A stretch of 64,000 bases of DNA from Anaerolineae bacterium (GTDB taxonomy: Bacteria; Chloroflexota; Anaerolineae; 4572-78; J111): assembly GCA_023151115.1 (NCBI GenBank), contig JAKLJP010000011.1:1-64000 (forward strand), given 5' to 3'. Below, in pieces: positions 5,350 through 63,248 of the stretch. A program made the position numbers and the translations under genes. A model generated the notes under the pieces. The model was not told the origin of the DNA. It saw only the letters and a list, made by a program, of their open reading frames with translations, and ran no database searches. Each line of letters starts with the position of its first letter. Position 1 is the stretch's first letter.

Positions 5350-5407
5350 AAAGGATGAAGGCAGAAGGATGAGGGCGGAAATTTTCATCCTTCATCCTTC
5401 ATCCTTA
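5350..5407. repeat. Word-based inverted repeat (GGATGAAGG type)
   Basis: The left arm (5350-5378) repeats AAGGATGAGGG-like words and the right arm (5386-5407) repeats CATCCTT. The element ends 18 bases before the start of the next gene. The same word family occurs at 30535-30600. Confidence 0.85.
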
Positions 5408-7496: not shown

Positions 7497-8300
7497 ATGG
7501 CCCATTGGCAAACAGAAACCGAACATGAAAAATTAACCCGACTCCGCGCCGCCGTCGAACAGGCCAAAACGGAGCTGATCGAGAAAGAAGCTCAGCTTGC
7601 CGACCGGCTGGCCGAAGTCAACGCCTTTGAGTTTCAATTTGAGGCCAGGGTTGGCTACCTGTACGATAAACTGGAGGCGCTGGAAGCGGAAATCGAGCGC
7701 TATATGGAGCGCCTGCACCTGCTGCGCCAAAAGCAGCAGGGCCAGGATTACGCCTCGGTGGATTTTCAATATCGCCGCGCCTGGCAAGCGCCGCCCCCCG
7801 CCGCGCCCACTCCCCCGCCGCAGCCGCCCCCGCCTCCCGACGAGGCCGAAATTCGGCGGTTGTACCGCCACCTGGCCCGCAGCTTCCACCCCGACCTGGC
7901 CGCCGATGAGCTTGAGCGTGCCCGCCGCACCGAGCAAATGGCCGCCATCAACAACGCCTACGCCGCCCGCAGCCTGCCCGAACTGGTCGCTCTGTCTCAA
8001 ACGTTAAACATTGAACGTTCAACGTTCAACGTTTCGCTGGAGGCGTTGCAAGCCGAACTGGACCGCTGCCGGCGCCGGGTGCGGGAGATCGAACGGGAAT
8101 TGAGCCAACTGCCGCAGCGGCCCAGCGTGCAGTTGAGCCTGGAAGTTAAGCTGGCCCGCCGCCGGGGCCGCGATTTACTGGGCGAATTAGCCGCCGAAAC
8201 CGAGAAAAAAATTGCCCGCAAAACCATCGAGCGGGATATGCTCAAGGCCCAATTCGACCAACTGGGGCCGGAGCAGGGCTTTATTCCCCTAAAGAGATAA
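7497..8300 (+). CDS. Coiled-coil protein with a central J-domain-like HPD segment
   Basis: The 267-residue protein starts with a long coiled coil (about 5-80) and a Pro-rich hinge (AAPTPPPQPPPPP). A segment YRHLARSFHPDLA follows, carrying the His-Pro-Asp motif of J-domains, which stimulate Hsp70 ATPase. A second coiled coil follows. The J-like part is short and may be only a minimal domain. Residues TLNIERSTFNVS (about 168-179) are encoded by a palindromic word repeat (7999-8034) that looks like an in-frame insertion. The AraC-type gene starts 3 bases after the stop, so the two are co-transcribed. A chaperone-adaptor role is inferred. Confidence 0.6.
   Translation: MAHWQTETEHEKLTRLRAAVEQAKTELIEKEAQLADRLAEVNAFEFQFEARVGYLYDKLEALEAEIERYMERLHLLRQKQQGQDYASVDFQYRRAWQAPPPAAPTPPPQPPPPPDEAEIRRLYRHLARSFHPDLAADELERARRTEQMAAINNAYAARSLPELVALSQTLNIERSTFNVSLEALQAELDRCRRRVREIERELSQLPQRPSVQLSLEVKLARRRGRDLLGELAAETEKKIARKTIERDMLKAQFDQLGPEQGFIPLKR
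7999..8034. repeat. Word-based palindrome inside a coding sequence
   Basis: AACGTT/TTGAACG words form a self-complementary stretch beginning AAACGTT and ending AACGTTT. It encodes TLNIERSTFNV in frame in the J-domain-like protein. The same GTTGAACGTT-type words appear at 52402-52430. Confidence 0.8.
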
Positions 8301-14172: not shown

Positions 14173-14218
14173 GATGAATAGTTTATCCTAACTTGGACAA
14201 GCAAGCCAGAGTCAAAAA

Positions 14219-14314
14219 GGAACACAAAGTTACGCAGAGACTCCACAGAGATGCGCAGAGAAGTGCCTCTATGAAACTCTGTGACTTCTCCGTGTCCCTC
14301 TGTGTAACAATTTC
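14219..14314. repeat. CACAGAGA-type imperfect inverted repeat, copy 2
   Basis: GGAACACAAAG, CAGAGA and CCACAGAG words on the left pair with CTCTGTG, CTTCTC and CTCTGTGTAAC words on the right. It lies between the two permease genes of one operon and could change the relative level of downstream genes. Confidence 0.8.
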
Positions 14315-26620: not shown

Positions 26621-28468
26621 ATGAAATCCGTAAACCGGACGTTGTACAAAAAAGGAACACGGAGTTTCACTGAGATTTCACAGAGATACCCAGAGAAGCA
26701 CCATAATTTCTTTGCGTGCCTCTGTGCTCTCTCTGCGTTTCTCTGTGTAACAATTTTTTGTTTGCGCAAAAATCTGACTCGTAAATCCCTAAAGCTTATC
26801 CTCACTCTCAGCTTTAGTCTTATCGTCCTACTTTTGCCCTTGAATGTTCTGGCTACCAATATTTTAACCAATAGCGGTCTCAACGATCCTTATGTCGCTA
26901 TTTCTGGTCGTACCTGGAACAGCCAGAACGAATTGATTGCCAGCGGTTGGCATCCTTTCTATATTGCCGCCGGAACTCACGATGCCGCTAATGATGCTAA
27001 AAAACTGCACTGGATGAGTTCGGTCCAGTTTGCGCTATCGTTTGGGGGCATTGACTATCACATCGAAGGCAACCGCGCCCAAAATATGTGGTCCTCCTAC
27101 AAATTTGACGCTGGTATTTATCAGCAAATCAGCGGCCTTACGCCCGGACAGGGGTATGGTTTTGATATTCCCATCGTAACATACTGGCGCGGCCCCGGCT
27201 ACCCTGACAGCGACGACAAAATGGTCAAACAGGTGGGTATTGACCCCACCGGCGGGACCGACCCGACCAGCCCCACTATCATTTGGAGCGCCACCAACGC
27301 TAACGACAAAGCCTGGGTTTACATGGATGTAGCCGCCACCGCTCAGGCTAGCACTATTACTGTGTTTGCCAGAGTACAGGCCCCGGAAAACGACTCTGTT
27401 AATCATACCGACCTGGATATGGTTTATTTTGACGCAGCCCACGTTGCGCCTGTGCCTACCACCACCCTTACTGCTAACCCCAGCGGTACAACAGTCAATT
27501 TAAGCTGGTCGGGCAGCGGTGTCGCGCCGTCGTGGTCACTAAAGGGGTACGAAGTCCAATACCGGGATACGACAGGCAGCAGTTGGACCACGCTGCAAGG
27601 CAAAAGCAACACCAACACCAGCGGCTCTTTTTCCGGGCAAGTGGGGCATACCTATGTGGTCCGGGCGCGCACCTGGCAAAAAATCAGCGAGAGTTACCAG
27701 AGCGATATTGATCTGCCCGGCGATTGGCGCGAGCAAACCGTTACCCTGGGCATTCTGGTCAGTGGGCGCGTTAGCGACAATCGGGGGAATGGTATCGGCG
27801 GCGTGGTTATCACCGAGAGTAGCAGTGGGGCCACGGCCACCAGCGGCAACAACGGCCTTTTTGCGCTGGGTGTGGCGGGCAGCGGGCAATATACCTTTAC
27901 CGCCAGCACCACCCTGGCCGGTTGGACGCCCCCGCCTCCCTTATCGGCTACCGTTCAGTTAAACCAGACAACACTGCTTTCTTTCACCATGCGCCCACCC
28001 GACGATGTAATCAACAACGGCGACTTTGAAATTGGGTCCAGCAATTGGACGGTCAGCGGAACCGCACCCGATACTATTACCTCTGGGCAGCGCAGCGGCA
28101 GCGCCAGCCTGCACTTAACCGGCACAGTCACGCTGTCGCAATCTGGCTCTGTTGCTAACAGTTACCAGCCAGTTTTGTCTTTCTGGTACAAAATGGCGGG
28201 CAGCGATGGCGACGATGTTTTCACCGCCGAACTGTTGGGTATGGACGGTCTGACCCCGGTGAACGGCTTCACCACCTCGACCAACGGCGGTTGGCAGCAA
28301 GCCTGGCTGCCGCTGAACTTGACCGAAGTCTATACCGGCCCGATTGGGGTACGCTTTAGCCTGGTTCAGGGCGGTTCGCCCCAGACATCTGTTTATCTGG
28401 ATGAAGTGAGTCTGGGGGGATCATGGGGCGGCCCCTTGCGAATCTATCTCCCGATCATCTTTGACTAA
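26621..28468 (+). CDS. Secreted multi-domain protein with carbohydrate-binding-like and CarboxypepD-reg-like domains
   Basis: The 615-residue protein has a hydrophobic export signal at about 52-77 (SLKLILTLSFSLIVLLLPLNVLA), not at the very N-terminus. Residues about 10-48 are encoded by a CACAGAGA repeat, apparently inserted between the start and the signal. The exported part has a jelly-roll-like first domain, an FN3-like domain (TTLTANPSGTTVNLSWSG), a carboxypeptidase-regulatory-like domain (VSGRVSDNRGNGIGGVVITES) and a C-terminal jelly roll beginning INNGDFEIGSSNWTVSG. It ends LRIYLPIIFD, a tail common in Chloroflexota secreted proteins. ATG at 26621 has SD AGGAG 6 bases upstream. Role: surface or extracellular glycan interaction (inferred). 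Confidence 0.75.
   Translation: MKSVNRTLYKKGTRSFTEISQRYPEKHHNFFACLCALSAFLCVTIFCLRKNLTRKSLKLILTLSFSLIVLLLPLNVLATNILTNSGLNDPYVAISGRTWNSQNELIASGWHPFYIAAGTHDAANDAKKLHWMSSVQFALSFGGIDYHIEGNRAQNMWSSYKFDAGIYQQISGLTPGQGYGFDIPIVTYWRGPGYPDSDDKMVKQVGIDPTGGTDPTSPTIIWSATNANDKAWVYMDVAATAQASTITVFARVQAPENDSVNHTDLDMVYFDAAHVAPVPTTTLTANPSGTTVNLSWSGSGVAPSWSLKGYEVQYRDTTGSSWTTLQGKSNTNTSGSFSGQVGHTYVVRARTWQKISESYQSDIDLPGDWREQTVTLGILVSGRVSDNRGNGIGGVVITESSSGATATSGNNGLFALGVAGSGQYTFTASTTLAGWTPPPPLSATVQLNQTTLLSFTMRPPDDVINNGDFEIGSSNWTVSGTAPDTITSGQRSGSASLHLTGTVTLSQSGSVANSYQPVLSFWYKMAGSDGDDVFTAELLGMDGLTPVNGFTTSTNGGWQQAWLPLNLTEVYTGPIGVRFSLVQGGSPQTSVYLDEVSLGGSWGGPLRIYLPIIFD
26649..26757. repeat. CACAGAGA-type imperfect inverted repeat, copy 3, inside a coding sequence
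   Basis: AAAGGAACACGGAG, CACAGAGA and CCCAGAGAAG words face CTCTGTGCTCTCTCTGCG and CTCTGTGTAAC words. It is read in frame near the N-terminus of the secreted protein. Confidence 0.8.
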
Positions 28469-44778: not shown

Positions 44779-44961
44779 TGATTATTCCTAACAGTCGCAA
44801 AGAGTTGGTCCTATTATTTATTATAAATTTCACAGGTAGATTAATCAAGAAGCTGTCAGGAATTTTGACCGCCGGCGCCCACCTTTATTTACAGTTAGCT
44901 CGCCTGGTTTCTTGGAAAACAGCAGCAATGGTACAATAGTGCCCCGGTGCTGCTGACAAGT

Positions 44962-51379: not shown

Positions 51380-51449
51380 TTAAACACGGCTCGTTGAAAA
51401 AAGTTATGTCCAGTGGTTCAGCAATGTATCGTTAAAGGGCATAGCTGGA

Positions 51450-51500
51450 ACGTGGTGCGTAGTGCGTGGTTCGTAATATTCCACGCACTACGCACCACGT
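51450..51500. repeat. 20-bp perfect inverted repeat (CGTGGTGCGTAGTG type)
   Basis: Arms at 51450-51469 and 51481-51500 are exact complements with an 11-base loop. It lies between DegV copy 2 and the sigma gene. The same GTGGTGCGT words make the in-gene element at 57594-57653. Confidence 0.92.
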
Positions 51501-51529
51501 CACACGTAGAAGAAATTATCTGGACATCA

Positions 51530-52396
51530 TTAGCCCGCTGAAGGCGGTTCCAGGCAAATGCCCACGCCCAGAGCGCCGGGTCCCAAGTGCGCGCCGATAA
51601 CCGGGCCAAGCTCGGAGGTGTAGAGGCGGGTGATATTAAAACGGCCTTTGAGCAGGGCGGCCATACTGTCCATTTCCGCTTCGGCGGCGATGTGCATCAC
51701 TCCGGCCTGAACAGGCTGGTGGGGGATGGTCAGTTTGCTTTCAAGTTCCACAAAGAGGCGTTCCAGAGCTCTTTTTTTGGTTCGCACCCGGTCGAGCGGT
51801 TGGAGCTTACCCTCCACCACGGCTAAAATCGGTTTGGTATTGAGCAGGGTTCCCAGAAAAGCCGCAGCCGAGCCAATACGCCCCCCACGCTTGAGATATT
51901 CCAGCGTGTCTACCACCAGGACAATATGGGTGTCGCGCCGCATCTGTTCCAGGCGAGACAAAATGGCGGGCAGAGGTTGACCTGCTGCTGCCATTTCCGC
52001 TGCGGTCAAGGCCATCAGCCCCAAACCCATCGCCGCCGATAAACTGTCGAAGATAGTAATGGCAGCTTCCGGCAATCCTTCGGCGGCGGTGACGGCGGCG
52101 CTGTAGGTGCCGCTTAAGCGGCTGCTGATGGTTAAAACTAAAATTTGAGCGGTGGGGTCTTGCTGCAAAATTTGCTGGTAAATTTGTTTGAACTCGCCGC
52201 TGGCCGGCTGTGAGGTGGTGGGAAAATCGGAGGTGGTGGCTAAACGGCGATAAAAATCGGCGTTGCTGAGGCCGCTGATTTCATCATAAGTTTCAGAGCC
52301 AAAGAGAACTTTAAGCGGCGCCACTGCAATTTGATGCCGCTGAAGCAGGTCCGGGGGAATGTAGCTGGTCGAGTCGGTAACAACCCTAATCATCAT
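51530..52396 (-). CDS. DegV family fatty-acid-binding protein (copy 2)
   Basis: The 288-residue protein has IRVVTDSTSYIPPDL, TTSQPASGEF, LTISSRLSGTYSAA and RGGRIGSAAAFLGTLLNTKPIL, the DegV fold of fatty-acid-binding FakB-type proteins. It is preceded by a winged-helix regulator gene that ends in the repeat just upstream, so the two are probably co-transcribed. Different residues from copy 1 in the lipid pocket region suggest a different acyl preference. Confidence 0.93.
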   Translation of the reverse strand: MMIRVVTDSTSYIPPDLLQRHQIAVAPLKVLFGSETYDEISGLSNADFYRRLATTSDFPTTSQPASGEFKQIYQQILQQDPTAQILVLTISSRLSGTYSAAVTAAEGLPEAAITIFDSLSAAMGLGLMALTAAEMAAAGQPLPAILSRLEQMRRDTHIVLVVDTLEYLKRGGRIGSAAAFLGTLLNTKPILAVVEGKLQPLDRVRTKKRALERLFVELESKLTIPHQPVQAGVMHIAAEAEMDSMAALLKGRFNITRLYTSELGPVIGAHLGPGALGVGICLEPPSAG

Positions 52397-54825: not shown

Positions 54826-55386
54826 ATGTATCATGAATTGACTGTTGCGGATAAGGTTATTACCGGCGAGGAACTGCTCGAGCTGGGTGATATTGGTCCC
54901 TGTGAATTGATCGAAGGGAGAATTGTGCCGATGACGCCAACGGGCGATGAACATGGTAGTTATGAAGGTAATCTTTATTACGTACTGCGCTCATTTGTTG
55001 ATAGCCACAAATTGGGTAAAGTGCGGGTGGGTGAAGTAGGCATCTATATCCGTCGCAATCCTGACACCGTGCGCGGCGCGGATGTAATTTTTATCTCGAA
55101 CGAGCGTTATGCTCAGAAAAAATCCAGCGATTTTTTAGATGTCGCGCCAGATTTGGTCGTTGAAATTTTATCGCCCAATGATAAATGGACGGAAGTGACG
55201 CAGAAATTGCGAGAGTACTTCGCCATCGGCGTCCGTTTGGTCTGGGTAGCTGATCCGCAAGCGCGATGTGTCTATGCTTATCGCTCGCTGACCGAGGTGC
55301 GCGAGTTTACGGAAAATGATGAATTATTGGGAGATGAGGTGCTGCCGGGTTTTTCAGAGAAGGTAGCGCGATTATTTGAGGAGTGA
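54826..55386 (+). CDS. Uma2-family (PD-(D/E)xK) restriction-endonuclease-like protein
   Basis: The 186-residue protein has the Uma2 pattern ELIEGRIVPMTPTGDEHGSYEGNLYYVLR, RGADVIFIS and APDLVVEILSPND, with the Asp...Glu-x-Leu core of a PD-(D/E)xK nuclease. Uma2 proteins are abundant in cyanobacteria and Chloroflexota, usually as many copies, and their role is not established. It ends just before the M48 gene start (stop 55384-55386, ATG 55388), so the two are closely coupled. Confidence 0.93.
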   Translation: MYHELTVADKVITGEELLELGDIGPCELIEGRIVPMTPTGDEHGSYEGNLYYVLRSFVDSHKLGKVRVGEVGIYIRRNPDTVRGADVIFISNERYAQKKSSDFLDVAPDLVVEILSPNDKWTEVTQKLREYFAIGVRLVWVADPQARCVYAYRSLTEVREFTENDELLGDEVLPGFSEKVARLFEE

Positions 55387-56446: not shown

Positions 56447-56520
56447 ACAGTGATCAGTAGTCAGTAGCCAGAAAATATTAGCTCTCTGCACTGTTTACTG
56501 ATAACTGGTTACTGATTACC
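56441..56520. repeat. Word-based inverted repeat supplying stops of two convergent genes
   Basis: CAGTAGACAGTGATCAGTAG and TCAGTAGCCAG words on the left face ACTGTTTACTGATAACTGG and TTACTGATTACC words on the right. The left end contains the TAG stop of the M48 gene and the right end encodes the final GNQ and TAA of the convergent GT39-like gene. Confidence 0.88.
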
Positions 56521-58287
56521 ATCCAATTCTTCACAACGCTTCAAGTTTTCCCCCTCCAATTCCCAACACGTCCGATCCTTAAACTGTTCGCGCAGTTTTC
56601 GGGTCATTTCTGGCCCTTCGTCGCTGGCGTAGACAACCGGTCCGTCCAGGGTGGGGCTGTTGGCCGCAAACGGCGCGGCGAAGTCGCTCCACCGTTCTAC
56701 ATTTTTGACAATCACCAGTGCCGGTTCCGGTAGTGCAGCCCGCTTCACCACTTTGAGTTGAGCGGCGGTGATGCCATATTTCCCCTTCTGCGCCGTCAAA
56801 AGTGGCGGCAAATTCCAGATGAGATTATAGGCAGTAAAGATGACAACTACGAAGATGGGCAGCCAGTGTAATGAACTTTTCCCTCCCCCCCGCGGCGGGA
56901 GGGTCAGGGAGAAGGGCGATTCCGGCCACCCCATCTGCTTTTGGGACAAACGCTGACCCTCCCCTAATCCCTCCCTTTGAGGGAGGGGAATATGAGCCAA
57001 CACATCCCCTGCAATCTGCACTCCCCGCACCGTCAACAACAAAAATGCCGGCAGGGCATCATAATAATAGCGGGGAAAACCGCCGTCGCTTCCGCCGAAA
57101 GCCCAATAGAAAATGTGAACAAAAATCAAGCTCAGAATTATGCCTAACAACAGCCAATCCCAGCGATTGGCTCGCCGGGCCAGAAAGGGGATAGGCAGAA
57201 ATAACAGATTGGTCCAGCCCGGCCAACCGAATAATCCCGTCGCCAAAGCAGTCAGTTTGAGCCGAGTGTTGATAAAAATGGCATCGGTTATCGTATAGCC
57301 ATAGGGTCCTATATCCGGGCCAAAGCCAAGCCGGTCATAAGGCCAGACGAGCAGGTAGGCGTTGAAAGTTGGATTGCCGGTGATGGCCCACCAATAGAGC
57401 GGTGATAAGGCGGCGATGGATAGTCCGCCCACAGCCAACCAGAACAGCGCCGGCCATTTGATTTCGCCACGCCAAATAAGGGTAAGCAAAAATATGCCAA
57501 TAGCCAGCCCCATTCCCACCCCGGCAAAAGGCCGGGTGATGAAGGCTGCGCCGAGGGCGGTTCCGGTGAGGATGCTATAAATCCATTGGCGTCGTGGTGC
57601 GTGGTGCGTGGTGCGTAGCTCATTTTCTTCACGCACCACGCACCACGCACCACATTTTGTAACCAAATAATATGTCCCTACCAACCCCACCGTTGACCAA
57701 AACAGCGAGGCCGTGTGCGAAAGCAGCGAACTGGATAAAAATAAAAAGCCCGGTGTGATCAGTCCAAGTCCGGCGGCCCATAGGCCAACGGCCCTCACCC
57801 CCAACCCCTCTCCCTCTGGGAGAGGGGAGTCGCCCCAGCGACGAGGTGAGGACTTTTTGTCATTGGTAGCATGCCATTGGTTCATGTACGCTCTTCTGCA
57901 AAAGCAATGCCCCAGCCAGGCAATCAACGCCAGAGTGATTGCTGCCAATGTGGCATTGACCAGCCAGGGTTCGCCCAGCCGGACGCCGAGACTCAGCAGG
58001 AACGGCCAGCCGGGCGGGTATTTGCCAAAGCGTTGTCCCTGGTAATCCACCACAAAAGGAGACCAGAAGGCTTGCCGCAGGGGAGGCGTCGGCGCGGCCA
58101 GGTGATTTTGGGCAAAAACTTTGGCCTGGAAAAGATAAGCGGCTTCATCTTCAGAGTGGGGAAGGTGCTCAAAGATGCGGTCGGAGAGAAGAGCAATGGT
58201 AAAAAAGGCAGTCAAACAAATAAGGATCAGACTGGCAGTGAAAACATGGCGGCGTAACGATTGAAGGGAAACTACAGTGTTAGGCAT
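56509..58287 (-). CDS. GT39-like (ArnT/PMT-type) membrane glycosyltransferase with three in-frame repeat insertions
   Basis: The 592-residue protein has about ten membrane segments and the GT-C features HLPHSEDEAAYLFQAKVFAQN (acidic catalytic loop) and FGKYPPGWPFLLSLG. It would transfer a sugar from a lipid carrier to an acceptor outside the membrane. Three hydrophilic stretches interrupt it: about 143-168 (SPRRWGDSPLPEGEGLGVRA), 211-234 (GAWCVVREENELRTTHHAPR) and 432-475 (LPQREGLGEGQRL, SPFSLTLPPRGGG). All are encoded by palindromic repeats found as intergenic elements elsewhere. The last three codons are also repeat DNA. The frame is intact, so the protein may still work. Confidence 0.75.
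   Translation of the reverse strand: MPNTVVSLQSLRRHVFTASLILICLTAFFTIALLSDRIFEHLPHSEDEAAYLFQAKVFAQNHLAAPTPPLRQAFWSPFVVDYQGQRFGKYPPGWPFLLSLGVRLGEPWLVNATLAAITLALIAWLGHCFCRRAYMNQWHATNDKKSSPRRWGDSPLPEGEGLGVRAVGLWAAGLGLITPGFLFLSSSLLSHTASLFWSTVGLVGTYYLVTKCGAWCVVREENELRTTHHAPRRQWIYSILTGTALGAAFITRPFAGVGMGLAIGIFLLTLIWRGEIKWPALFWLAVGGLSIAALSPLYWWAITGNPTFNAYLLVWPYDRLGFGPDIGPYGYTITDAIFINTRLKLTALATGLFGWPGWTNLLFLPIPFLARRANRWDWLLLGIILSLIFVHIFYWAFGGSDGGFPRYYYDALPAFLLLTVRGVQIAGDVLAHIPLPQREGLGEGQRLSQKQMGWPESPFSLTLPPRGGGKSSLHWLPIFVVVIFTAYNLIWNLPPLLTAQKGKYGITAAQLKVVKRAALPEPALVIVKNVERWSDFAAPFAANSPTLDGPVVYASDEGPEMTRKLREQFKDRTCWELEGENLKRCEELDGNQ
56881..56987. repeat. Nested palindrome inside the GT39-like gene (CCCTCCC type)
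   Basis: Outer arms GGGAGGGTCAG (56897-56907) / CTGACCCTCCC (56953-56963), with CCCTCCC-TTT-GAGGGAGGG (56969-56987) and a CCCTCCC/GGGAGGG pair at 56881-56903. It is translated in frame as residues about 432-475. Confidence 0.85.
57594..57653. repeat. 23-bp perfect inverted repeat inside the GT39-like gene
   Basis: GTGGTGC words from 57594 to 57616 are the exact complement of 57631-57653, with a 14-base loop. It is translated in frame as residues about 211-232. Confidence 0.95.
57793..57851. repeat. Nested palindrome inside the GT39-like gene (CCCCTCTCCC type)
   Basis: CCCCTCTCCC-TCT-GGGAGAGGGG (57805-57827) inside CCTCACC (57793-57799) / GGTGAGG (57845-57851). It encodes SSPRRWGDSPLPEGEGLGVRA. 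Confidence 0.9.
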
Positions 58288-58412: not shown

Positions 58413-61400
58413 CTACGGCCCCGACTGCCCCGCTTCCAGCCATGCCTCAAATTTAGCAAAATCTTCCTGCGCCCCCTGTTGATCGCCCACTTGCAGCCGG
58501 GCGATACCGCGGCTGTTGTAATACAGGCCGTTGTCCGGCTCCATCTCGATGGCTTTGTCGCAGGCGTCGAGGACTGTCTCGGCCAGGCCGTGCCGGGTTC
58601 CGGCATCGCACAACGCCTGCCAGGACTTGGCGGATTCGAGCGAACCGGCCAACTCAATCGCTTCCTCAAATTTGGCCTGGGCCGTCTCGGTATCACCGTT
58701 TTTTGCGGCCTTGACCGCCGCCGCCAAGCTGTTTTCAAAGGTCGGCTGGGCCAGGCGTTGGGCTTCCGCCTGGGGATCAAGGATGAGGGTGGGGTCTAAA
58801 GTCACAGCTTGCTCCAAAGTGGCGCGGGCTGCTTCGACATCGCCAGTCTGAGCTTCTTCTCTGGCTTGCGCCAGCAGGCTTTGCACCGCCTCCTGATACG
58901 CTTGCTGCGCTTCCGTTTGCGGGTCTAGATCGAGGGTGGGATCAACGGTGAGCAAATGTTGCAATTGGGCGATGGCCTCGTCAACCTGACCTGCTCGGGC
59001 CAAGTCGCGGGCCGTTTCGATGAGGCTGGGGTGAACAGGCCGGTTGGGACAGGTGCGGTGGTAGGGCGTCCCGGCAGGCAAATAGGCGGCCCATTCCGCT
59101 GCGTTCAAGTTGCGAGTGACCCACCGGCATGAAGGCTGCATGAACCGGGTGTTTATTAAACGAATAGTCCCATCCTCTGCGGCTGAGGCCAATCGTTGTC
59201 CATCGGGGCTCCAGGCCAGGCCGTTGACCTCACTGCTATGCCCTTGAAGAATAGCAACCCTCTGCCCCGTACCCACATCCCAAACAATCACGGTTTGATC
59301 GGCCGCGGCTGAGGCCAGTTGCTTTCCATCTGGACTCCAGGCCAGGGTAATGACATAATCGGTATGGCCGTAGAGCGTATTTTTGAGCTGACCCGTCGCT
59401 GCATCCCAGAGGATAATGGTTTGATCTTCTGAAGCGGAGGCCAACTGCCGGCCATCCGGGCTCCAGACAACGCTGGAGACAATATTTTTATGGCCACTCA
59501 GGGTAGTGACCTGCTGGCCCGTTGCCACATCCCAGATAATCACTGTTTGATCGGTTGAGGCTGCGGCCAATTGCCGGCCATCTGGGCTCCAGGTGAGATC
59601 AAGGATCCAGCCGGTATGGTTGGCCAGGGTTTTCTGAGGCTGACCGGTTGCTGTATTCCAGATGATGATCTGATCCGAAGAAGCAGAGGCCAACTGCCGG
59701 CCATCCGGGCTCCAGGCGACATCAAGGATCCAGCCGGTGTCATCTTCGAGGGTTTTCTGGGGCCGGCCAGTCGCCACACGCCAAATAATAATCGTTTGAT
59801 CGGCCGAAGCTGAGGCCAATTGTTGACCATCTGGGCTCCAGGCGACGGCGAGCGGTGAGTCAGTGTGGCCGGAGAGGGTCTTTTGGGGTTGAGCGGTGGC
59901 TGCATCCCAGAGGATGAGCGTCTTATCGGTCGAGACTGAGGCCAATTGTTGCCCCTTTGGACTCCAGGCTACGTCGGTAACCGGGCCTGTGTGTCTACGC
60001 AGGGTCACTGCGATTGGCCCGCCGGTTACATCCCAGATAATAATGGTTTGGTCGGCCGAGGCTGAGGCCAACTGCTGACCATCGGGACTCCAGGCTATAC
60101 TGGTAACCCGACCAGAGTGACCGTGCAAGGTCGCCGCCGGCTGGTTGGTGGCGACATCCCAAATGATAACAGTTTGATCTTGTGAGGCTGAGGCCAACTG
60201 CTGACCATCGGGACTCCAGGCGACGTCAAAGACCCAACTGGTGTGACCGTGGAGCGTCTTTTGGGCTTGACCGGTTTGAACATTCCAGATGATAACAGTT
60301 TCATCTTCTGAAGCTGAGGCCAATTGCTGCCCATCGGGGCTCCAGGCCACTTTATAGACAATGCCTGTGTGGTCACGCAGGGTCATAGCCGCCTGACGCG
60401 CCGCTACATCCCAGATGATAACGGTTTGATCCTCCGCAGCGGAAGCCAACTGCCGCCCATCGGGGCTCCAGGCCACACCGACGACAAAGTTTGTATGACC
60501 ACGCAGTCTTGTCATCAACTTGCCGGTTGTTGCATCCCAGAGGATAACGGTTTGATCGGACGAGGCTGAGGCGAGTTGTTTACCGTCAGGGCTCCAGGCG
60601 ACACTGATAACCCCATCGGAGTGACCGCGCAGGGTAGCGGCCCGCTGACCGGTCGCCACATCCCAAATAATGATCGTCTGATCGAATGAAGCCGAGGCCA
60701 GTTGTTTGCCATCGGGGCTCCAGGCGACATAGTTGATCATATCAGTATGGCCCTCAAGTGTAAAAGCCGGTTGGCCAGTCGTTATGTTCCAAATGATAAT
60801 GGTTTGATCATCCGAGGCTGAGGCCAATTGTTTGCCGTCGGGGCTCCAGGCGACGCTTTTAACCCAGTCAGCGTGACCGTTGAGAGTGACTTTCATGGGA
60901 AAATAACGATAAGGAACCTGCCCCATCACCCGTTCGACTTCCAAGGTTTGGGTTAATCTTTGCGCTTCAAAGAGTAAAAGCAGCGCTTGCTCCGGCTTTT
61001 CAGCCAAAACAGCTTGGGCTTGGCTGGTCAACTGGCGGGCGTTGGCCAGGTTGGCCTGGCGCTGAGCTTCGGCGGCGTTGCTCTCGGCAATTACTTTCTC
61101 GGCCTGGGCAGTCGCTTGAGCCAGAGTTACCCGGTTAACCTGGACCCTGGCTTTAGACTCGGCCAGGAGCGCCCGATTGGCTTCGGCCTGGGCGGTGCTC
61201 TGGGCGTTCAACGCCCTGGCTGCTTCGGCCAGCGCGGTGGCCTGGGCCAGTTGGGCCTGAGCAGCGCCGGCCTGGGCCGTGGCGGCGGCAAGGGTGCGCT
61301 CCTCAGCCGCCCGGCCCTGAAAAATGGCAATGGCTATGGCCGCGCCAATAATGAGCAGGACTACGGCGGCAATCAACCCGTACCATTGCAGTTGCACCCG

Positions 61401-63149
61401 GCGGACGGCGATCTGGCTGCGGCGTAATAATTCTTTGGCGTCGTCATCCAGCCGCAAAAATTGGCGCTGGCTGTTGATGATGGCAAACTTTTCGGCGCTC
61501 AGCAGGGCTTGGGCGCCGTAGCGTTTATAAGCGGCCACTTCCTGATTAAGCAGCTCTTCGGCGGCGCGGCGGGCCTGCGTTTCAGGGTCGAGTCTTAATT
61601 CGACCAGCAAGTAATCGTGGGCCAGCTCGTAGGTTGGCTCGTCGGTTTGCTCGTCCTTTTCCACGTTCAAAAGACGGTTTTCAATTAAATGGCCAAGCAG
61701 CTTGTCCAGGCTTTTGACGCGTTTCAGATCATCAGCCAGAACAGCTTCCAACTCGCTTTTGGTTCGGCGGATGCGCCGCTGGTCGGCGGAGACCAGGGCC
61801 ATTAAAAGCAGGCGGGCGGCTTCACGCTCGGCTTTGGTGGCCGTGGCTCGGAGCACCCGATTCAGGTGATTGCGCAGGATGCCTTTAGCCCGTCCCTCGG
61901 CCTGGTACATCTGGAGGGTAATCACCGGCGGCAGGTTGGGCGCGGCTTCGCGCCGCTGGCAGAAGAAGGTGTACAGGGCCGAGCAGATCAGTTGGAGTTG
62001 GGCCGGTGAGACTTCATCACTGTCCGGGTCGCGCAGGTCGGTGAACAGCGCTTCCACCAGGGCCGGCTCAAAGCTGATCCCCTGCCGGCTGGCCGGAGTG
62101 GTAATCACGGTTTCCGTCTCAGCCCGATTAAAGCGATTGAGGCGAAAATCATTTTCAAAGGGGTTGCGCAGGGTAGGCCGGAAGTTGGCAATGGCCCCAA
62201 AAAATTCGGTTCGCAGCGAGAAGACCCAGCGCACGTTGAGGCTCTCATCGTCCAGACATTCGGCCAACTCCTCGACAAAGGCGGTACGGGTAGGTTCATC
62301 AGTCAAGGTAAAGATTTCTTCAAACTGGTCCAGAAAGAGGTAAAGCGCCGCTTGCTGGCCCAATACGCCGGTGACGCGGCGCAGAAAATCGCGCAGGCGG
62401 GCTTGGGCCAGTTCAGGCATATCGCTCAGGTCGGGCAAAAAAGCCTGTTTGATCACCAGGCCGGGCGGCTGGTTGTAGGGGCGCAGATGGACCGGCAGGT
62501 GTCCTTGCGCCAGCAGCCGGGGCGCAATCCCGGCTTGCAGGATAGAGCTTTTACCCGCGCCCGACTCGGCGTGGAGAATCAGTAAGCGACCGCGCTGAAG
62601 CCGGTTCAGCAGTTCGGTGATAGCCCCGTCGCGCCCGTAGAAGAGTTCGCTATCGCCCAGCCGGTAAGCTTCCAACCCTTTGTAGGGGTTGCCGGTAGCG
62701 GTGTCGCTTTCGTCGGCGGCAATTTCGTGAAGGCGCAGGGCATAATCACGGACGCCCTGGGCCAGCCGCCGGGCGGCCACTTCCTGGGCTTTTTCGGCTT
62801 CCTCGGCAGCAGTCAGGGCGCGGGCGGCGAGTTGGGTGATATTTTGGATCACCTGGTCGCCGGCCACATAGGTTTCGGCGGTAATGTTGACCACCTGGCC
62901 GTCGCGCAGGGCCAGCAGCAGCGGCTTCAGGGCTTCTTCTAATTCGGCTGCAGAGAGTTGACCGGCCAACGCTTGCTCAAGCAGGCTAATTGCATTGTAG
63001 TGATCCTGAATCTGGTTGAGCAGTTCCAGAGGGGCATTGCCGCCGTATTTGGCCTGACGTTCCTGGAGAATGGTGAGATTTTTGGTTAGCTCAACCAGTT
63101 GCTTGCGCCGGGCAGCAATATCTATCGTTGGCTCGGTTGTAACGGTCAT
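58413..63149 (-). CDS. STAND NTPase with 14 WD40 repeats and TPR-like tail
   Basis: The 1578-residue protein has an N-terminal helical effector-associated-like domain (about 10-65, LQERQAKYGGNAPLELLNQI) and a nSTAND1-type NTPase (about 150-600) with Walker A ESGAGKSS (Lys200) and Walker B LYLFLDQFEEI (about 269-279). A membrane helix (YGLIAAVVLLIIGAAIAIAI, about 640) and an Ala/Gln-rich coiled coil follow. Fourteen WD40 repeats (about 751-1336) would make two seven-bladed propellers, and TPR-like repeats end it. Such proteins are sensor-switch signalling hubs, and some act in anti-phage defence. ATG at 63149 is chosen for its SD AAGG. Its ligand and effector are unknown. Confidence 0.92.
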   Translation of the reverse strand: MTVTTEPTIDIAARRKQLVELTKNLTILQERQAKYGGNAPLELLNQIQDHYNAISLLEQALAGQLSAAELEEALKPLLLALRDGQVVNITAETYVAGDQVIQNITQLAARALTAAEEAEKAQEVAARRLAQGVRDYALRLHEIAADESDTATGNPYKGLEAYRLGDSELFYGRDGAITELLNRLQRGRLLILHAESGAGKSSILQAGIAPRLLAQGHLPVHLRPYNQPPGLVIKQAFLPDLSDMPELAQARLRDFLRRVTGVLGQQAALYLFLDQFEEIFTLTDEPTRTAFVEELAECLDDESLNVRWVFSLRTEFFGAIANFRPTLRNPFENDFRLNRFNRAETETVITTPASRQGISFEPALVEALFTDLRDPDSDEVSPAQLQLICSALYTFFCQRREAAPNLPPVITLQMYQAEGRAKGILRNHLNRVLRATATKAEREAARLLLMALVSADQRRIRRTKSELEAVLADDLKRVKSLDKLLGHLIENRLLNVEKDEQTDEPTYELAHDYLLVELRLDPETQARRAAEELLNQEVAAYKRYGAQALLSAEKFAIINSQRQFLRLDDDAKELLRRSQIAVRRVQLQWYGLIAAVVLLIIGAAIAIAIFQGRAAEERTLAAATAQAGAAQAQLAQATALAEAARALNAQSTAQAEANRALLAESKARVQVNRVTLAQATAQAEKVIAESNAAEAQRQANLANARQLTSQAQAVLAEKPEQALLLLFEAQRLTQTLEVERVMGQVPYRYFPMKVTLNGHADWVKSVAWSPDGKQLASASDDQTIIIWNITTGQPAFTLEGHTDMINYVAWSPDGKQLASASFDQTIIIWDVATGQRAATLRGHSDGVISVAWSPDGKQLASASSDQTVILWDATTGKLMTRLRGHTNFVVGVAWSPDGRQLASAAEDQTVIIWDVAARQAAMTLRDHTGIVYKVAWSPDGQQLASASEDETVIIWNVQTGQAQKTLHGHTSWVFDVAWSPDGQQLASASQDQTVIIWDVATNQPAATLHGHSGRVTSIAWSPDGQQLASASADQTIIIWDVTGGPIAVTLRRHTGPVTDVAWSPKGQQLASVSTDKTLILWDAATAQPQKTLSGHTDSPLAVAWSPDGQQLASASADQTIIIWRVATGRPQKTLEDDTGWILDVAWSPDGRQLASASSDQIIIWNTATGQPQKTLANHTGWILDLTWSPDGRQLAAASTDQTVIIWDVATGQQVTTLSGHKNIVSSVVWSPDGRQLASASEDQTIILWDAATGQLKNTLYGHTDYVITLAWSPDGKQLASAAADQTVIVWDVGTGQRVAILQGHSSEVNGLAWSPDGQRLASAAEDGTIRLINTRFMQPSCRWVTRNLNAAEWAAYLPAGTPYHRTCPNRPVHPSLIETARDLARAGQVDEAIAQLQHLLTVDPTLDLDPQTEAQQAYQEAVQSLLAQAREEAQTGDVEAARATLEQAVTLDPTLILDPQAEAQRLAQPTFENSLAAAVKAAKNGDTETAQAKFEEAIELAGSLESAKSWQALCDAGTRHGLAETVLDACDKAIEMEPDNGLYYNSRGIARLQVGDQQGAQEDFAKFEAWLEAGQSGP
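59140..60895. repeat. Tandem array of 14 WD40-coding units of about 126 bases
   Basis: Units share blocks encoding VAWSPDGxQLASAS and DQTxIIWD, with strong DNA similarity. Unit 10 is one codon short (SSDQIIIWN). The array can expand or shrink by recombination. Confidence 0.95.
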
Positions 63150-63248
63150 CGGCAACCTTCTTGAATTGGCCTGCGGGGGAAAATTAACATTTGACGCCAA
63201 TTGATTTTACCCCACGCTGCCGGGAGAGACAAGCGAGGGAAGTGGGAA

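Follow-up and report, generated by a model that had tools for sequence, protein, structure and literature searches.

A glycosyltransferase gene with three in-frame palindromic inserts

The stretch of Anaerolineae DNA analysed here (64,000 nucleotides, hereafter the window) carries on its reverse strand, at 56509-58287, a gene for a membrane glycosyltransferase of the GT-C fold with three inserts. The frame is open over 592 aa with all three segments in frame, as a sequence-only reading of the window had proposed. The protein itself had no match in Pfam at E 0.1, and its relative P0099 matches PMT_2 and PMT. With an AF2 model of the 592-aa protein (pLDDT 81, pTM 0.84), the best Foldseek hits were GT-C enzymes, namely AglB, ArnT and Pmt4 (E 5e-7 to 8e-6, TM 0.40-0.45 of the query) and ALG9/ALG12. 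Its first loop bears an invariant acidic motif, E46 D47 E48, presumably the catalytic one of GT-C enzymes, and fold and motif together identify the product as a GT-C glycosyltransferase. The stop codon of the gene falls inside an ACTGATA-like, heptamer-type imperfect palindrome read from the sequence at 56448-56528, which overlaps the 3′ end of the gene; the sister genome is arranged alike, and 23-32 bp pieces of this palindrome are dispersed in the sister contig.

Alignment with insert-free homologues gave exactly three extra segments, the number expected from the sequence, at about residues 132-164, 212-229 and 439-468, the inserts of the window protein beginning after residues 131, 211 and 438. 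The three sites proposed earlier stand, but the extra stretch at site 1 is longer than had been read and extends to about residue 132 (57894). In the AF2 model the inserts are low-confidence coil between helices 108-142 and 162-176, 191-213 and 234-251, and 406-431 and 472-503. In GT-C enzymes the first loop, bearing the acidic motif, faces the periplasm; by this rule and the helix count, the loops of sites 1-3, and a minor fourth loop that holds inserts in some homologues, would lie on the cytoplasmic side.

Insert 1 is a GC-rich nested palindrome with a flank (57787-57894, reverse strand, about residues 132-167, reading ...SSPRRWGDSPLPEGEGLGVRA). Its palindromic core, at 57793-57851, has an outer stem CCTCACC/GGTGAGG (57793-57799/57845-57851) that encloses two hairpins at 57805-57827 and 57829-57842, with stems CCCCTCTCCC/GGGAGAGGGG and GTCGC/GCGAC. 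Insert 2 is a 60-bp hairpin (57594-57653, residues 212-232, reading CGAWCVVREENELRTTHHAPR), a perfect 23-bp inverted repeat (57594-57616/57631-57653) with arms (GTGGTGC)3GT and a loop of 14 nt. Insert 3 is a GC-rich composite palindrome (56881-56987, within residues 432-475, reading ...LPQREGLGEGQRLSQKQMGWPESPFSLTLPPRGG), composed of the stems CCCTCCC/GGGAGGG (56881-56887/56897-56903), GGGAGGGTCAG/CTGACCCTCCC (56897-56907/56953-56963) and CCCTCCCT/AGGGAGGG (56969-56976/56980-56987). The perfect stem and the nested stems had all been recognized from the sequence. Rfam at gathering thresholds gave no match anywhere in the window.

The best single stems at sites 1, 2 and 3 score 10, 23 and 11, and were matched by 2, 0 and 3 of 200 base shuffles; moreover, 35 codon-shuffled genes yield about 1.3 stems of at least 11. 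Sites 1 and 3 are therefore much weaker than site 2 as single stems, and are distinguished by their nesting, site 1 also by dispersed copies. The sister contig has copies of the core of insert 1 (1439902-1439961 and 1494260-1494325), one copy matching as far as window position 57857. For insert 3, a search of the contigs of two relatives at E 1e-3 gave nothing beyond its orthologue. The GC-rich core (55-58% of the query) also matches eight plasmid records, seven of them cyanobacterial; in one, from a Pseudanabaena plasmid (NZ_CP112877.1, 160347-160384), it lies under an annotated DNA methyltransferase. Insert 2 shares its GTGGTGC/GTAGTGC heptamer family with an intergenic hairpin of the window at 51450-51500, bearing out the earlier remark that the two elements use the same words. 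At this intergenic place (51380-51560) the sister has a heptamer sequence of GAGACCR type.

Distribution and replacement of the inserts among homologues

We found 502 homologues of the glycosyltransferase among 7998 scored candidates, and aligned 120 of them, from among the matches listed, with the window protein (10 of the 120 are shorter than 450 aa). A segment was counted as an insert if it was internal, 10 aa or longer, and lay outside the alignment columns occupied in half of the rows. By this measure 48 of the 121 aligned proteins have inserts: site 1 is filled in 18 of them, site 2 in 30 and site 3 in 24, and a single further loop (window residues 369-375) in 5. These are known mostly from proteins and need not all be palindromes. 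A quick tree was made from the 111 proteins that reach 450 aa, with columns near the insert sites excluded; on it, presence or absence at sites 1-3 needs at least 8, 17 and 9 changes, gain and loss being indistinguishable.

Database proteins P0001, P0002, P0004 and P0019, from different sources, read through the inserts at sites 2 and 3, as does the MAG contig JABTUK010000003.1. Given these read-throughs, a wrong frame or a misassembly, for which we found no supporting evidence, can be all but dismissed as the origin of the inserts.

A contig scan gave nine family loci and, with the window, DNA of ten loci for comparison. All filled sites are palindromic in the window, in the sister locus L001 (83% in the best segment) and in L002 (68%). 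The other seven loci have no stem above 7 at the three sites, with L003 site 3 (1/200) and L005 site 1 (9/200) marginal against shuffles. A distant carrier of the same segments in non-palindromic DNA, which would have spoken against palindromic insertion, was found nowhere among the loci compared, and these seven more distant loci all lack the segments. L002 is without insert 2, its protein being shorter at that place by 20 residues, which corresponds to one 60-bp hairpin. At site 1 L002 has an unrelated 17-bp palindrome, and the sister has a longer, two-hairpin form of the GC-rich element. Insert 3 is present in altered forms in L001 and L002. Different elements are thus seen in the same loops in a relative. 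Because site 2 differs from sites 1 and 3, and the site-1 palindrome of L002 is different again, we discarded a single mobile family as the source of all three inserts. They are best explained as a mixture of no fewer than two unrelated kinds: sites 1 and 3 hold composite hairpins rich in GC, and site 2 holds a hairpin built of tandem heptanucleotides. The account of which this is part we regard as likely on the whole.

Inserts 2 and 3 are common to the window and the sister genome, which are about 88-92% identical around the gene. The repeated insertion into one gene proposed from the sequence is thus upheld as to number, but not as three recent events, nor was any recent gain observed in the gene. 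In L001 the stem of insert 2 scores 15, against 23 in the window, and the changes are on single sides, so that L001 is not maintaining the stem. Over a wider sample, 26 of the 249 genomes of the class that were searched matched; among 35 genes (25 from this search plus the same 10 loci, with some repeats), stems of at least 13 occur only at sites 1-3 of the window, L001 (again as L194) and L002, and once at an N-terminus, that of L175. Outside the sites there are three more stems, each of 11: in L167 and L008 (the same peptide in both) and in L169.

In favour of the inserted peptides being functional and selected for, inserts 2 and 3 are retained in several relatives, and the insert-2 peptide is identical in P0001 and nearly so in P0019, with only 4 nucleotide differences from the sister over 23 codons. 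Yet pLDDT is low at the inserts, and pN/pS between the window and the sister is 0.85, 1.03 and 0.58 for inserts 1, 2 and 3, above the 0.31 of the core, values that come from small counts and, for insert 1, from a doubtful alignment. Moreover, unrelated peptides replace the inserts in other homologues, and 73 of the 121 aligned proteins have no insert of 10 aa at all, all of which makes selection for the peptides very improbable.

Palindromic hairpins within other genes

With genes called by a custom script, 332 hairpins divided into 241 between genes, 69 at the edges of genes and 22 that lie at least 30 codons inside a gene (21 genes in all). A Pfam scan covered 13 of the 21 proteins, three of them only in part, and similar hairpins proved to lie in the reading frames of unrelated genes. 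The 13 comprise three PMT/PMT_2-like enzymes (one just below the cut-off), a MalT-like ATPase, an aminotransferase, a MutS2, a type ISP restriction-methylase, an EamA protein, a nickel-insertion protein, a ROK protein, a DUF1786 protein and two without match. The aminotransferase has 40 residues, including the palindrome, where PDB 8bj4 has 5. In MutS2 (L143:7047-9527) a linker at about residues 295-325 is palindromic in its DNA, and this linker is very variable in the 60 of 120 aligned homologues that were viewed. In four of the proteins (nickel-insertion, ROK, EamA and DUF1786) the hairpin is close to the called N-terminus, which may be wrong, so that the hairpin could lie ahead of the true start. 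Insertion does not account for at least two of the 22 in-gene hairpins, those in c3 130562-133273 and in the sister's counterpart of window gene 7497-8300.

The sequence-only reading had suggested a search of the source genome for the same words in other coding sequences; in the sister genome they do occur in frame in other genes. Among five other open frames with words of insert 1 or 2 that were inspected, only one has insert 2: a beta-mannosidase-like GH2 enzyme (L157:7475-9952), in which a GTGGTGC hairpin is translated in frame, from residue 618, as CGAWCVVR...RTTHHA, resembling insert 2. The same enzyme has a second heptamer-like stretch at residues 251-299 (SPVISHQLSV...DHCSLTTDHCSL). In the four frames with words of insert 1, these lie within the first 98 residues and hence possibly upstream of the true start.

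Conserved genes were compared through orthologues of the two contigs, which form 127 reciprocal best pairs, 86 of them at 50% identity or more, with 15 insertions of at least 8 aa. Only 3 of the 15 beat the best of 60 shuffles in stem, and two of these three are in the glycosyltransferase gene, so palindromic inserts are rare in conserved genes.

Heptamer-armed hairpins in the relatives' genomes

The sister genome (G001) is collinear with the window at about 88-98% identity per block. Hairpins scoring at least 14 number 10 in the window, 288 in the sister contig (1.555 Mb) and 34 in that of the second relative (568 kb), compared to none in one Markov-2 shuffle of the 568-kb contig. Inverted repeats are reported as over-represented in most bacterial phyla (PMC4060949, in part of its text), and this abundance is therefore by itself ordinary. 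In sister-contig hairpins scoring at least 18, agreement along the arms is 0.62 at lag 7 and 0.60 at lag 14, against 0.24-0.32 at other lags up to 15. Tandem arrays in the sister number 231 at lag 7, 108 at lag 14, 85 at lag 8, 17 at lag 15, 13 at lag 6 and 10 at lag 12, with 0-6 at the other lags from 2 to 13 and none at any lag in the Markov control; the 568-kb contig has 13 at lag 7. The 88 period-7 hairpins of one contig fall into 39 unit classes. The GTGGTGC hairpin pattern has 44 matches in G001, some overlapping, and 1-2 matches in 6 of 300 other Chloroflexota genomes, some of which are plainly different palindromes. The AAGGATG pattern has 85 matches in G001; among 201 genomes, two others have 14 and 12, and another 13 have 1-6 each.

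Period 7 in the arms is also what would be expected if the palindromes had arisen in place, short hairpins being grown or perfected by slippage and template switching in seven-base steps. Three further observations agree with such an origin: a hairpin arm at window 5351-5406 differs from that of the sister by exactly one heptamer; an AACGTTC heptamer palindrome at 7999-8033 lies in a conserved gene (7497-8300) whose length is unchanged relative to a relative, that is, without insertion; and the GTGGTGC hairpin of the GH2 enzyme is not a clean insertion when compared with PDB 5n6u. On the other hand, the insert-free relative differs at site 2 by 20 residues, a whole hairpin; the 44 partly overlapping GTGGTGC matches in G001 are not expected from slippage alone; and the GC-rich element is dispersed in units of at least 60 bp. 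We accordingly consider origin in place unlikely.

An inverted copy lies within 120 bp of 78 of the 231 lag-7 arrays, and a direct copy of only 2. The heptamer hairpins might be written as head-to-head heptanucleotide arrays, of many different sequences, around AT-rich loops, rather than copied from fixed mobile elements, with array-writing strong in some Anaerolineae and weak in others and in-frame copies in loops becoming protein segments. We regard this combined reading as doubtful, if somewhat less so than origin in place. Loops share a 6-mer in 46 of 136 pairs within a heptamer class and in 283 of 3692 pairs between classes, and this partial sharing makes any argument from varied loops weak.

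Probable insertion followed by a survival filter

The sequence-only reading had suggested that repeated insertion reflects an active process generating new segments of protein. Open frames average 2.95 of six in intergenic hairpins, compared to 2.82 in a null that keeps the palindrome, and 1.71 compared to 2.35 in intergenic heptamer hairpins, whereas hairpins inside genes average 4.09 compared to 3.64. Intergenic copies are no more readable than expected, and the suggested process is therefore unsupported; nor do these counts give any sign that the elements are built stop-free. They are instead as predicted for a survival filter.

The explanation that we favour, and consider probable, is that small palindromes are dispersed by insertion and that, within genes, the copies which survive are those that keep the frame, contain no stop and sit in tolerant loops. 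Small, dispersed, non-autonomous palindromic elements would have entered the GT-C glycosyltransferase gene in an Anaerolineae lineage, moved by some enzyme or copying process, and would be translated because each kept the frame and had no stop on the coding strand. Insertion would be indiscriminate and then filtered by selection, inserts persisting where they fall in unstructured loops, which presumably face the cytoplasm and lie clear of the catalytic face; the inserted peptides themselves would do nothing useful. Target-site duplications, which a MITE would be expected to leave, were not consistently seen in nine clean indels, not all of them palindromes, in which overlaps were 4, 1 and 1 bp and, six times, 0 bp. 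No enzyme could be tied to the elements. The number of Y1 transposases (PF01797), the enzymes of REP/RAYT systems, is not supported as an explanation by G001 and G002, which have three matches each despite a roughly threefold difference in contig hairpin density.

Relation to known repeats

The inserts are of a kind already known from RPE and intragenic REPs, at least from the parts of the sources available. RPE are several families of small palindromic repeats found in frame in unrelated genes (PMC10969869, in part), and protein-coding palindromes of Wolbachia are on record through a title as cited. The likeness to Rickettsia elements noted in the sequence-only reading is borne out by the three palindromic in-frame insertions, which are absent from homologues and, for inserts 1 and 2, have dispersed copies in unrelated genes and intergenic places of the sister genome. 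The shared features are small palindromes, several families and in-frame positions in unrelated genes. The differences are the phylum, the size (60-107 bp here, about 150 bp for RPE in the same partial source, PMC10969869), a class with heptanucleotide-tandem arms, and no peptide common to the three inserts.

REPs tagged with GTAG or CGTC are described as stem-loops that occur in ORFs, where they add 20-30 aa, sometimes two per ORF and also outside Rickettsia, as in Opitutus terrae; it is argued there that intragenic copies occupy linkers or loops, and GTAG repeats are reported for Chloroflexi (all from parts of PMC3733652). REPs have also been counted in Anaerolinea thermolimosa (PMC12306157, in part). 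The GTAG tag is absent at all three inserts, and occurs at 25 of the 288 sister-contig hairpins compared to 12 in the control. Of the three inserts, insert 2 alone has a CGTC beside it, and this tag occurs at 11 of the 288 compared to 14 in the control; insert 2, with a stem of 23 and a loop of 14, is larger than CGTC REPs, with stems of 8-9 and loops of 4-5 as far as the source text goes, and is not one of them.

Heptanucleotide repeats are described as GGGAATC in Xanthomonas, GGGGA(T/C)T in Nostoc and TAACTGA in Beggiatoaceae (PMC4692102 and PMC4679880, in part). Like the heptamers here, they have a seven-base unit in many copies that are mostly intergenic with some in ORFs, and 70 and 75 pairs of convergent arrays in Xanthomonas form inverted repeats, so that heptamer-armed hairpins as such have already been described. 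According to the same partial texts, however, each of those organisms has one unit type, in contrast to the 39 unit classes here, some translated in frame. PARCELs likewise are palindromic DNA that codes for protein segments, many in ORFs with membrane-targeting sequences, but they are tandem 25-residue domains, unlike the single inserts here (PMC2996958, in part).

Among titles and abstracts of the open-licence literature we found no description of in-frame palindromes in Anaerolineae, nor of many heptamer classes in one genome. As far as that literature shows, three things are new: the occurrence in this lineage, the use of one set of loops by elements unrelated to each other, and the range of heptamer classes in the hairpin arms. 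Protein-coding palindromes, best known in Rickettsia and Wolbachia, are hereby extended to Chloroflexota, and a protein family with loops entered by unrelated repeats allows one to ask if inserts are merely tolerated or ever useful. The varied heptamer-armed hairpins of constant period are a separate puzzle on the origin and spread of short repeats.

Other features of the window

At 58413-63200 lies a gene for a 1595-aa protein with 126-bp repeats at about 59146-60854, which we take to be WD40-like. The window has at 54826-55386 a gene for a 186-aa product, presumably a Uma2-type protein; in the sister contig this place is occupied by a palindromic element rich in GC. At window position 44819 the sister has a 1027-bp insertion with inverted ends that resembles a whole insertion sequence. 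A repeat type resembling ACAGAG occurs at 14214-14263 and 26649-26756, the latter copy lying inside a called gene and being extra relative to the sister.
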